In this document: positions 35,253 to 38,453 of the stretch, in pieces
How the letters are laid out: the number at the start of each line of letters is the position of its first letter
Position numbering within the stretch: position 1 is the stretch's first letter
NCBI RefSeq assembly: GCF_010894455.1
Contig: NZ_JAAIXY010000010.1
Span: 298,940 to 362,939, forward strand
Direction: 5' to 3'
DNA: 64,000 nt
From: Myxococcus eversor
Lineage (GTDB): Bacteria; Myxococcota; Myxococcia; Myxococcales; Myxococcaceae
Translations under genes and position numbers: made by a program
Notes under the pieces: model-generated
What the model saw: the letters and a program-made list of their open reading frames with translations, nothing else
What the model was told of the DNA's origin: nothing
Database searches by the model: none

Positions 35253-35795
35253 TCAAGACAGCCCCAGCTCCTTGCGCAGCTTGCCCACGATCTTGAAGTA
35301 CTCGGTTCGGGGGAAGGGGACATTGAGGATGTGGAAGTCCTTCTTGGCCAACCCCACGCAGCCGAAGCAGTAGTTGCAGTCCTGCAGGTTGCGGCAGAGC
35401 ACCAGGTACGCGCTGGTGGTGCAGTTCTCGCTCTGCAGACAGTAGGCGCACGCGTGACAGCTCTTGCACTCCACGCAGTGCGAGCAGTTGTTGCACAGCT
35501 CGCACCGCGTGCAGTGGGTGCACTGGAAGCAGCTGTCGCAGTCCTTGCAGAACATGCAGTTGGCGCAGCGTTGACAGCCCTCACACGCGTAGGAGCCCGG
35601 GTTGCCGGGGTCCGACGCGTAGCTCTTGGTGAGCTTCTGCAACTGCTCCAGGAACTCCCGCTTGCCGAGCGCCGACACCAGCGCGCGCGCCGCCTTCTCC
35701 GCGGCGAGCGGATCCACTGCGTCTGGCCGCGTACCTTTCTCCTTCACCACCCGGGACACTCCTTGCCCGTCTTTGGGGCTCTCTTCTGGGCTCAC
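35253..35795 (-). CDS. Protein with cysteine at every third residue (17 in register)
   Basis: A 180-residue protein. Residues 71-119 have Cys at 71, 74, 77 and so on to 119 without a break: 17 cysteines at exact 3-residue spacing. Five more follow (125, 134, 140, 143, 146). The N-terminus (1-60) is helical and charged; the last 35 residues (KKDFHILNVPFPRTEYFKIV) are a conserved-looking tail. No signal peptide. CxxCxxC repeats could hold Fe-S clusters or zinc, or form a solenoid; I know no assigned function. The ATG overlaps the stop of an upstream lipoprotein (ATGA). Confidence 0.85.
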   Translation of the reverse strand: MSPEESPKDGQGVSRVVKEKGTRPDAVDPLAAEKAARALVSALGKREFLEQLQKLTKSYASDPGNPGSYACEGCQRCANCMFCKDCDSCFQCTHCTRCELCNNCSHCVECKSCHACAYCLQSENCTTSAYLVLCRNLQDCNYCFGCVGLAKKDFHILNVPFPRTEYFKIVGKLRKELGLS

Positions 35796-36355
35796 TGAAG
35801 CCGGGCCAGCCCGGCCAGGTCGATTCCTCGCGCCACCCGCCGCACCTCCACCGTCCCCGGGAAGCCTCGGCTGGTGACGGCCACCACGAAGCGGTCCCCC
35901 ACCAGGAGATTGGCCTCCGCCAGCGACTCCTCCGCGTCGTATCTCACGAAGCCCACCGCGTCCTTCCAGTGGATGGGCGCCGCCGGGTCGCTGGGTGCCC
36001 GGCCCTTGGCCCGCTCCGCCGCGTCGCGGATGGCCTGCCCAATCTTCTCGCCCATCGTGGTGTCCACGATGCGCACCTTCACCTCTCGCCCCTCACCTCG
36101 GGTGAACAGGCGCTCGGCCTCGGACACCGACACCTCGCCGTACTTGCCGGTGGAGCCCTGCGTCCGTGCGACGGTGAAGCCTTCCAGTTCCTCTGGGAGG
36201 AAGGGGGCCAGCGACTTGAAGTACACGCAGGGCGCGCTCGCGGCGGGCACGGAGGCTTCCACCTCGCCCATGGCGGCGTCACGCTCCATGCATCCGACAC
36301 CGGGAGCGAGCGCGAGCAGGGCGGCGGTGAGGCGGAGGAGAAAGTTGTCGCGCAC
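35792..36355 (-). CDS. Lipoprotein, partner of the Cys-repeat protein
   Basis: A 187-residue protein starting at GTG 36355: MRDNFLLRLTAALLALAPGV then GC, a lipoprotein-like signal (lipobox PGVGC). A longer frame from 36409 would overlap the pcrA start and is rejected. The mature domain (AAPIHWKDAVGFVRYDAEES, ANLLVGDRFVVAVTSRGFPG) is not recognised. It starts 34 bases from pcrA (divergent) and is co-translated with the Cys-repeat protein, so the two probably work together. Confidence 0.72.
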   Translation of the reverse strand: MRDNFLLRLTAALLALAPGVGCMERDAAMGEVEASVPAASAPCVYFKSLAPFLPEELEGFTVARTQGSTGKYGEVSVSEAERLFTRGEGREVKVRIVDTTMGEKIGQAIRDAAERAKGRAPSDPAAPIHWKDAVGFVRYDAEESLAEANLLVGDRFVVAVTSRGFPGTVEVRRVARGIDLAGLARLQ

Positions 36356-36389
36356 GGACGAATCAAAGGGTATCCCCGGCCCGCGCGCA

Positions 36390-38453
36390 ATGGACCTCTC
36401 GAAGCTCAACCCTCCTCAGCGCGAGGCCGTGGTTACCCTCCAGGGGCCCTTGCTGGTCCTCGCGGGCGCTGGCAGCGGCAAGACTCGCGTCATCACCCAC
36501 CGCATCGTCCACCTGCTCGACGAGCGACCAGACCACATCCTGGCTCGCAACATCCTCGCCGTCACCTTCACCAACAAGGCGGCCACGGAGATGAAGGAGC
36601 GCCTGGTCCACATGGCCGGGCCGCGTGCGCAGGGAGTGCTGGTGTGCACCTTCCACGCCTTTGGCGCGGAGATGCTCCGCGAGGATATCCACCGCCTGGG
36701 GTGGCCCAAGAAGTTCGCCATTGCCGACATGGGCGACCAGCTGGCCATCATCCGCCGCGCCATGCGCGAGCACCGCATCGACGACCGCTCCTTCGACGCG
36801 CGCAAGGTGCTCAACCTCATCTCCAAGGCGAAGAACTCCGGCAAGGCCCCGGAGCCCAAGCCGGAGGGCATCGGCGATGACTACGACCTCATCACCCACA
36901 TGGTGTACCCGGACTACCAGCTCGCGCTGAAGGCGCAGGGCTCGGTGGACTTCGATGACCTGCTCCTGCTGCCCGCGCGCCTGTTGCGCGAGCACTCGGA
37001 CCTCTACGTCAAGTACACGCGCCGTTTCCGCTATCTGCTGGTGGACGAGTTCCAGGACACCAACCTGGCCCAGTTGGACGTGCTCAAGCTGATGGCCGGC
37101 GAGTCGCGCAACGTGTGCGCGGTGGGTGACGACGACCAGTGCATCTACTCGTGGCGCGGCGCGGAGGTGCGCAACATCCTCCACTTCGACCACTTCTTCC
37201 CGGGCAGCAAGGAAGTGCGGCTGGAGCAGAACTATCGCTCCGTGCAGATGGTGCTGGACGCGGCCAACGCCGTCATCGCGAAGAACCCCGAGCGCAAGGC
37301 CAAGCAGATGTGGACCGACCGCAAGGGCGGTCCCAAGGTCAAGATCGTGGCGTGCCCCAATGACGAGGAGGAGGCCCGCTTCGTCGCGCACGAAATCCAG
37401 AAGCACGTGTCGCTGGGCGTCCCCGAGGACGACATCGCGGTGCTCTACCGGACCAACGGCCAGTCCCACCCGGTGGAGGAGATGCTGCGCGAGAAGGGCA
37501 TCCCCTACGAGGTTGTCGGTGGCAGCGAGTTCTTCGACCGGCGCGAGGTGAAGGACGTCATCGCGTACTTCAAGGTCATCGTGAACCGGCTGGACGAAAT
37601 CTCCCTCATGCGCATCGTCAACGTCCCGTCCCGGGGCATTGGCGACGTGACGATGGAGCGGCTGCACGGGCACTCGCGCTCCGAGGGCGTCACCCTGTGG
37701 ACGGTGATGCGCAAGGCCACCGAGTACGAGGACCTGCCCCCCGGCGCCGGCGAGAAGGTCCGCGAGTTCGTCGAGCTGGTGGAGCGCTACCGCGCGGCCT
37801 ACGAGCACGGCCAACTTGCCACCGTGACGCGCAAGCTGCTGGAGGAGATTGGCTTCCGCGAGGCCACCCGCGCCCACGCGCCCAGCGCCACCAGCGCGGA
37901 CAAGAAGCTCAAGGGCGTGGACGGGGTGCTCGGCTCGCTGGAGCGCTTCGAGAAACGCGAGGGCCCCAAGGCCAGCCTCCTGACGTACCTCAACCGCCTC
38001 AGCCTGGACACCAAGCAGGAGGAGGACGAGGACGTGCCCGGCGCCAACCGCCGCGTCACCCTGATGACGGTGCACGCCTCCAAGGGCCTGGAGTACCGGC
38101 TCGTCTTCTTCATCGGCATGGAGGAGGACCTGATGCCCCACGGTGGCATGCAGGGCGAGGCGCAGAACCTCGAGGAGGAGCGCCGCCTCTGCTACGTGGG
38201 CATCACCCGCGCCAAGGAGACGCTGTACCTCACCCGCGCCGTCACCCGGGTGAAGCGCGGCAAGGAGGTGCCCCGGACGCCCTCCCGTTTCCTGGAGGAC
38301 CTGCCCGCCGAGGTCGCCGAGCACGTCGCCATGGATGCGCCGCGTCAAGGCGACCCCACGCCAGAGGAGAAGAACTTCTTCGCGAACCTGAAGGAGCGCT
38401 TCAAGAAGCCGGCGCCCGGGGCTCCGGGGGGCGGTGGGGTGCCCGGGCGGTAG
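36390..38453 (+). CDS. UvrD/PcrA/Rep superfamily I DNA helicase
   Basis: A 687-residue 3'-5' helicase: motif I AGAGSGKT (25-32), motif II LLVDEFQDTN, motif III VGDDDQCIYSWRGA, LEQNYRS (IV), TVHASKGLEY (V) and RRLCYVGITRAKE (VI). Used in repair and in removing RecA or RNA polymerase. Length fits Rep or PcrA (about 670-740). A disordered Pro/Gly end (PAPGAPGGGGVPGR) may bind partners. The 5' part of the long upstream frame overlaps an opposite gene, so ATG 36390 is chosen. Confidence 0.95.
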   Translation: MDLSKLNPPQREAVVTLQGPLLVLAGAGSGKTRVITHRIVHLLDERPDHILARNILAVTFTNKAATEMKERLVHMAGPRAQGVLVCTFHAFGAEMLREDIHRLGWPKKFAIADMGDQLAIIRRAMREHRIDDRSFDARKVLNLISKAKNSGKAPEPKPEGIGDDYDLITHMVYPDYQLALKAQGSVDFDDLLLLPARLLREHSDLYVKYTRRFRYLLVDEFQDTNLAQLDVLKLMAGESRNVCAVGDDDQCIYSWRGAEVRNILHFDHFFPGSKEVRLEQNYRSVQMVLDAANAVIAKNPERKAKQMWTDRKGGPKVKIVACPNDEEEARFVAHEIQKHVSLGVPEDDIAVLYRTNGQSHPVEEMLREKGIPYEVVGGSEFFDRREVKDVIAYFKVIVNRLDEISLMRIVNVPSRGIGDVTMERLHGHSRSEGVTLWTVMRKATEYEDLPPGAGEKVREFVELVERYRAAYEHGQLATVTRKLLEEIGFREATRAHAPSATSADKKLKGVDGVLGSLERFEKREGPKASLLTYLNRLSLDTKQEEDEDVPGANRRVTLMTVHASKGLEYRLVFFIGMEEDLMPHGGMQGEAQNLEEERRLCYVGITRAKETLYLTRAVTRVKRGKEVPRTPSRFLEDLPAEVAEHVAMDAPRQGDPTPEEKNFFANLKERFKKPAPGAPGGGGVPGR

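Follow-up and report, generated by a model that had tools for sequence, protein, structure and literature searches.

A myxobacterial protein with cysteine at every third residue is predicted to share the fold of beetle antifreeze proteins

Introduction

Pentapeptide repeat proteins are slender cytosolic beta-solenoids with 20-residue coils of four five-residue sides, and they are not known to carry a cysteine register. The antifreeze proteins of beetles are built on the repeat TCTxSxNCxxAx, in which C, S, C and A stand at every third position and which winds into right-handed 12-residue coils with disulfides between residues i and i+6; a stag-beetle homologue has antifreeze activity only once its cysteines are oxidised (PMC8038014). 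The locus described here lies in a 64,000-nucleotide stretch of Myxococcus eversor DNA (the window) and encodes a protein with cysteine at every third residue, which by prediction adopts the same 12-residue coil. It differs from the beetle coil in having thiols in all four inward columns and in lacking the ice-binding face.

Results

The gene and its cysteine register

The protein has cysteines at residues 71, 74 and so on to 119, a run of 17 in exact i+3 register that had been reported in a preliminary description; both the run and its position hold, and the gene is on the minus strand (Table 1). The five 'more' cysteines of that description (125, 134, 140, 143 and 146) are present too, but they are not extras, as they share the same three-residue register and place 22 of the 22 cysteines in phase. 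The other register positions up to residue 149 are S122, S128, L131, L137 and L149. Four consecutive coils (71–80, 83–92, 95–104 and 107–116) have Cys at all four inward positions. Chance or composition is ruled out as the source of the run, the longest i+3 series in 100,000 shuffles of the protein being 7 (in two shuffles) against the 17 observed, and a six-frame scan of the window finds runs of at least six Cys at i+3 in this gene alone. The gene is under purifying selection, with dN/dS values of 0.04–0.44 against nine relatives.

Table 1. Positions of the Cys-register gene, its parts and the upstream frame in the window
Feature	Coordinates	Strand	Residues	Basis or remarks
Upstream frame, putative lipoprotein (LLALAPGVGC)	35792..36409	-		Stop overlaps the GTG start of the Cys-register gene; found in 27/73 loci
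Cys-register solenoid protein gene	35253..35795	-	180 aa	GTG start; 22 Cys; open reading frame, relatives, purifying selection
Predicted N-terminal helix ahead of the first coil	35613..35663	-	45–61	AlphaFold2
Whole predicted solenoid, ~7 12-residue coils	35349..35594	-	68–149	Alignment, model, substitutions, period
Run of 17 Cys at exact 3-residue spacing	35439..35585	-	71–119	Cys positions, predicted strands, coil table
C-terminal cap xKKDFHILNxPFxRxEYFxxVxxL	35277..35348	-	150–173	Alignment; most conserved stretch

Family and distribution

Exact peptide patterns run in one scan of genome_contigs yield 73 related loci, with titles that name Myxococcota, a few that say only 'Deltaproteobacteria', and one Comamonas. 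The genome searches covered the window's own genome and the phylum Myxococcota, and there the family profile (E up to 1e-4) is positive in 127 of 195 genomes, with a best match of 1.3e-41 or better in every positive genome; by a count of the search table, 93 of the 96 genomes of the window's own family are positive. All positive genomes have one match except a single one with an additional weak partial match (126 of 127 with one), so that the function should be accessible by deletion. A possible second copy in the window's own genome, the sole other match there, has an E-value of 0.32 and 22% identity and was taken as noise. Genome G188 has two TAG codons reported within the match, which sit 5′ of the likely start, and its gene reads intact. 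The record titled Comamonas sp. KCTC 72670 contains a Myxococcus-type gene (83% identity) and the lipoprotein neighbour (78%), and probably bears a wrong name or includes contaminating DNA.

Searched at E up to 1, Pfam and NCBIfam contain no family that the window protein matches, which agrees with the preliminary remark that the register is unlike that of a zinc finger or a ferredoxin. A Pfam scan of 50 of the 74 proteins (window plus relatives) gives six families, one member each, the best at E 0.0051; a RING-like family (E 0.064) and Anamorsin_N (E 0.037), a methyltransferase-like domain, are each matched weakly by a single member. Plasmid records return only four weak matches to the window protein (E 0.2–0.9), and the relative with 13 cysteines (L062), used as query, matches no phage or plasmid record at E up to 0.1. 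Among the titles and abstract openings listed in a literature search, none concerned the myxobacterial Cys-register family.

Conservation and substitution along the register

Conservation across Myxococcota, on which the preliminary description had staked its reading, is borne out: the register is unbroken in the 74 aligned proteins (window plus 73), which have no indel and zero gaps from residue 60 to 178. The 28 register columns comprise 2,072 cells, of which 1447 are Cys (70%), 345 Ser (17%), 227 Leu (11%), 33 Val, 7 Met, 7 Ala, 4 Thr and 2 Gly, with charged residues and His at zero; Ala is thus scarce. Off the register, Cys occupies one of 3,996 cells. As the residue varies and the register itself does not break, the constraint falls on the position more than on the thiol. 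What replaces Cys differs from column to column. In columns 71+6k the replacements are mostly L/V/M (254, versus 43 S/A/T) and in columns 74+6k mostly S/A/T (262, versus 13 L/V/M), both sets of counts including related sequences repeatedly, so that their P value is inflated.

The number of register cysteines per protein ranges from 13 to 22 and is odd in 35 of 74. Nine of them (71, 74, 77, 95, 98, 125, 140, 143 and 146) are present in at least 68 of the 74 proteins, C77 and C143 in all 74; because these nine are near-invariant and Ala is rare in the register, thiol chemistry may matter, and a thiol-specific role is possible. Position 149, at i+6 from C143, is Leu in 74/74. The cap residues K152, D153, F154, I156, L157, N158, F167 and L173 are likewise identical in every protein.

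Changes at register positions were also compared for co-occurrence on the branches of a quick tree made without the register columns, using 500 randomisations. Same-direction changes on the same branch number 4 at a separation of 6 residues (7.6 expected), 10 at separation 3 (7.2 expected; 91/500 randomisations as high) and 10 at separation 12 (6.6 expected; 65/500 as high), and opposite-direction changes at separation 3 number 9 (5.4 expected; 42/500). No pairing partner is prominent over the register separations.

Ahead of coil 1 the window protein reaches a peak 15-residue hydropathy of 0.89, and the same measure has a median of 0.27 in 69 relatives (four of the 73 having been left out as misread frames); the value for L062 is 1.66, with an uncertain start codon. 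As there is no strongly hydrophobic N-terminal segment, the window protein is probably cytoplasmic and its thiols would be reduced.

Twelve-residue period and predicted fold

A 12-residue period is evident outside the register, where the similarity of non-register columns is +0.11 at a lag of 12, -0.21 at 24 and -0.34 at 36, and between -0.81 and -1.16 at the remaining eight lags tested. As 12 residues contain four register positions, a coil with four inward side chains is implied. Columns that recur with the same period form a ladder of aromatic and His residues: 82 (Phe in 74), 94 (His 54, Tyr 20), 106 (His 71), 118 (Tyr 54, His 19), 130 (Tyr 72) and 142 (Tyr 74 of 74).

AlphaFold2, run on 50 aligned sequences (the window protein and 49 of the 73 loci), gives a model of the window protein with an overall pLDDT of 75.7 and block means of 89–97 over residues 71 to 140. 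Its strands lie 12 residues apart (70–72, 82–84, 94–96, 106–108, 118–120 and 130–132). The N-terminal 24 residues and the region beyond 150 are weak, with a confidence of 52–63 in the cap, and the five models differ in mean pLDDT from 50 to 76. A second AlphaFold2 model, of L062 (13 Cys, 37 sequences), again has 12-residue coils, so that the structure prediction proposed in the preliminary description yields a solenoid in both cases.

Compared with the PDB by VIA-align, the L062 model is closest to 1ezg, an antifreeze protein of the beetle Tenebrio molitor (Z 10.2, rmsd 2.6, 82/82 residues); the next unrelated row has Z 7.1 and the NMR structure 1l1i of the Tenebrio protein Z 7.0. The window model is closest to 1l1i (Z 7.2, rmsd 3.6, 84/84 residues), effectively tied with the runner-up, antigen 43b (Z 6.8). 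Foldseek finds no PDB match to the window model at E up to 0.001; an unrelated SV2A entry heads its list and the beetle protein is 39th, at E 1.8; other 12-residue or metal-binding solenoids that Foldseek places low may have escaped. The family profile has 1ezg as its best match among PDB sequences, a weak one (E 0.0035; composition bias of 35 bits). Training on the PDB may have taught AlphaFold2 the beetle fold, and the fold assignment is based on VIA-align, the period and the residue pattern taken together; on these the window protein is very probably a beta-solenoid with 12-residue coils and the beetle-antifreeze fold.

The match to the beetle protein and the residue make-up of the register both point to an inward orientation of every third residue. 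The solenoid of the preliminary description is thus retained as a prediction, but not its placing of the cysteines on one face: they fill all four inward columns, as a 12-residue coil puts every third residue inward.

Gene neighbourhood

The upstream frame and the Cys-register gene overlap at GTGA, which makes translational coupling plausible. The upstream frame is a putative lipoprotein as read from its N-terminus LLALAPGVGC; it has no NCBIfam match, and in Pfam only a weak Cecropin match below the cut-off (E 0.025). The co-translation with a lipoprotein noted earlier is therefore consistent with the overlap but limited to a lineage, and the upstream frame, present at 27 of 73 loci, is rejected as an obligate partner. 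Many Myxococcaceae loci share a UvrD-like (42/73) and an RlmI-like neighbour (40/73), which give no functional lead. A dtd gene (D-aminoacyl-tRNA deacylase; PF02580, E 1.1e-55 for the L064 copy) lies directly 3′ of the gene in 19 of the 73 loci, all of them within L053–L075. In 19 of the 19 the distance between the stop of the Cys-register gene and the start of dtd is -4 to +16 nt, which suggests an operon of the two in that lineage. Neither the lipoprotein nor the UvrD-like, RlmI-like or dtd neighbour is common to the whole family.

Phage and viral proteins

At E up to 1 a tblastn search returns 18 phage records, of which 13 are Campylobacter phages; the best has E 3e-6. Three phage proteins tested belong to phrog_15341, a group from Campylobacter and other phages labelled in PHROG as of unknown function. 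The profile of this group finds the window protein (E 2.5e-8) as well as 50 of the 50 family members scanned, over residues 69–149 and only 85 of 276 profile positions, so that the match reflects composition in part. In phrog_15341, as in the myxobacterial family, cysteines recur every three residues: the CP220 protein has them at 27 of 27 register positions and the WX1 protein at 41 of 43. The register in 18 phage and viral-contig proteins (three of them tested against PHROG) is more purely Cys, at 488 of 493 positions, a figure inflated by the Cys-delimited stretches. The phage proteins differ in having no clear 12-residue period and a different N-terminus, and the cap is missing in the three tested. 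The N-terminal region resembling VDxNxNxW...EEA in the CP220, WX1 and viral-contig proteins is not in the window protein, and a Vibrio member of phrog_15341 also lacks it.

Records of Campylobacter phage CPt10 already carry insect antifreeze and TNFR motif notes, and the every-third-Cys pattern has therefore been seen before in annotation. Foldseek with the window model matches H6SUK4 of Campylobacter virus IBB35, named Caib/baif (E 3.7e-5, 32% identity), and the 'TNFR-Cys' protein A0A5B8IEK9 of Mimiviridae sp. ChoanoV1 (E 3e-8, 31% identity); the TM-scores are only 0.27–0.40, both targets are predicted models, and the names are annotation labels.

The period-3 Cys pattern in viral_contigs gives at least 120 stretches, 80 of which (L094–L173) were examined. 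They contain 88 frames with at least nine Cys; 15 were kept as protein-like and 73, mostly low-complexity repeats or shadow frames, were dropped by eye. The 18 proteins counted above are the 15 kept frames and three proteins from other loci. Scanning viral_contigs with the alignment returned 91 stretches and no confirmed relative. Patescibacterial and viral proteins with a similar NCFGCVGL..K.Y.IFN cap are candidate distant relatives, and patterns for this cap find 0 and 6 stretches in viral_contigs, none of the six reading as a relative.

In the viral-contig proteins of L110 and L140 a long CxxC register is fused with a C-terminal part containing WHTC.TTHCRAGWVVHLAG; Pfam gives no match for the L110 protein, and that of L144, read over its similar beginning, is perhaps alike. 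Flavobacterium phage FL-1 has a similar frame with CRAGWVVQLAG (L077:3719-3943) close to a repeat gene. Where FL-1 matches the window protein by tblastn, the annotated frame (L077:3239-3583) encodes a different three-residue repeat (APIAPVAPVAS...), and the match itself lies in another frame. Two register frames of L151 end in CSFCVGGVQFTEDEYRKI and, in the second, CSFFVGNVQFTEDEYRKI, and the register protein of L141 ends in QKNHMAFNKKVSEERYDEILGELRKI. As read, these L151 and L141 ends resemble the myxobacterial cap FGCVGL..KDFHILN..F.R.EYF, and a cap is possibly shared.

Discussion

The explanation that we favour is that of a cytoplasmic scaffold with a thiol core and the beetle fold, docking a partner through its ladder and cap; taken whole, we rate its chances as even. 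The protein would be a small cytoplasmic beta-solenoid with the beetle-antifreeze fold, of about seven coils with four inward side chains each, and its reduced thiols would mainly pack a core that has no room for most side chains. That Cys gives way to Leu/Val in two of the inward columns and to Ser in the remaining two suggests this role for the thiols. The part in use would be the outside of the rigid rod, where the Phe/His/Tyr ladder (82, 94, 106, 118, 130 and 142) and the invariant cap may be where a partner protein or another copy docks. As judged from the sequences, the substitution pattern and the odd cysteine totals speak for a packing role in the core rather than for fixed metal clusters or obligatory disulfides. 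Against docking, the neighbours shift between lineages (lipoprotein frame and dtd alike), and the cap, as the proposed docking site, is modelled at low confidence. The nearly all-Cys register of the phage and viral proteins, among the matches listed and with the inflation noted above, speaks against packing.

The cysteines could instead act by their chemistry. In a disulfide-clamped solenoid or thiol redox buffer, Cys 71+12k and 77+12k would pair across the core, permanently or under oxidative stress, as do the within-coil i,i+6 disulfides of the Tenebrio antifreeze protein and as the stag-beetle homologue needs in order to be active (PMC8038014). Both members of the equivalent pair are Cys in 69, 52, 58, 43 and 61 of the 74 proteins in coils 1 to 5. 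We nevertheless consider this unlikely, as disulfides would tie cysteines in pairs and the odd totals and the unenriched co-loss at separation 6 count against that; moreover one partner is missing at 107/113 in 31 of 74, invariant C143 faces Leu at 149, and the window protein is probably cytoplasmic. A thiol-lined metal store, in which reduced all-Cys coils would bind soft metal ions, Cu(I) or Zn for example, in a stack of Cys4 layers, similar in principle to Csp3, is a shade less probable again. It would account for the four consecutive all-Cys coils of the window protein and for the nine near-invariant cysteines, and a rigid thiol-lined core storing Cu(I) in the cytosol has a precedent in Csp (PMC7558416). 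Of the 74 proteins, 58, 41, 50 and 32 retain Cys at all four inward positions of coils 1, 2, 3 and 4, which speaks for the store; 2 do so in coil 5 and none in coil 6. Fixed metal clusters would tie cysteines into sets, and this incomplete retention speaks against them. The other register cysteines are often lost singly to Ser, Leu or Val, down to the total of 13, and no metal transporter, chaperone or regulator is found among the few adjacent genes identified, most genes at the related loci being unannotated. A more specific version, to which we give a rather small chance, has the four all-Cys coils forming a thiol-lined tube with a single file of soft metal ions, a protein-sheathed metal-thiolate column. 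In a reduced cytoplasm each layer would contribute four thiols, successive layers lying roughly one strand spacing from each other, and the C-terminal coils that bear Leu and Ser would shut the tube at one end. An electron wire, with Fe-S centres or redox centres of another kind along the CxxC register, is very improbable: the regular CxxC spacing and the near-invariant Cys at both ends are all that favours it, and the predicted coil, by the beetle match, is probably too thin for clusters. Ferredoxin families are unmatched (Pfam and NCBIfam for the window protein, Pfam for 50 members), and mid-register Cys are exchanged for Ser or Leu in relatives. Conserved four-Cys ligand sets may lie among the nine, which include 71-74-77 and 140-143-146, but many register cysteines are lost singly. 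The chain of CxxC ligands in the preliminary description fares poorly for the same reason, one-at-a-time replacement by Ser or Leu/Val being a better fit to core packing, and its metal store or electron wire is not supported.

The neighbourhood and the fold offer two further candidate roles. An accessory subunit of Dtd in translation quality control would explain why dtd adjoins so closely in all 19 loci, but dtd is not found in the stretches of the other 54 of 73 loci (some of them short), the window has RlmI-like and UvrD-like neighbours instead, and a gene may share an operon with a housekeeping gene by accident; we regard this role as improbable. A bacterial ice-binding protein is hardly credible, even though the predicted fold equals that of the beetle antifreeze protein. 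Columns 82, 94, 106, 118, 130 and 142 contain no Thr in the 74 proteins, only F, H, Y, Q, L and N; the ladder occupies the place of the beetle Thr ice-binding rank, an equivalence deduced from strand positions. Nor is the N-terminus of the window protein strongly hydrophobic, and the Pfam insect antifreeze model (PF02420 type) is unmatched at E up to 1 in the 50 members scanned.

A fold solved in a beetle antifreeze protein recurs, by prediction, as a single-copy gene under selection in Myxococcota. This suggests that thin solenoids with a cysteine core serve more widely as a building block, also in phages and perhaps in giant viruses, and raises the question of how such a thiol core stays reduced, oxidised or metal-filled inside the cytoplasm.

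Comparison with known systems

Among pentapeptide repeat proteins, Qnr, MfpA and AlbG align with the window model by VIA-align at Z 4.4–4.9, and the myxobacterial coil, with a period of 12, is unlike their 20-residue coils. The copper storage protein Csp3 resembles the proposed metal store in being a rigid cytosolic protein with a thiol-lined core (PMC7558416), whereas Csp1 and Csp3 are four-helix bundles and the myxobacterial models are beta-solenoids.

The closest system is the Tenebrio molitor antifreeze protein (1ezg, 1l1i), which has the same 12-residue coils with every third residue inward and the same alternation of two Cys columns (here Leu/Val if not Cys) with two small-residue columns, Ser/Ala in the beetle and Cys or Ser in the myxobacterial protein. 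The latter differs in having Cys in the Ser/Ala columns as well and odd Cys totals, in lacking Thr in the first ice-binding rank and any apparent secretion signal, and in adding a helix ahead of the coils and, at the C-terminus, a conserved cap. The insect and myxobacterial proteins are probably not homologous; on this reading, the pattern of cysteine at every third residue is the beetle coil with Cys in its Ser/Ala columns too.
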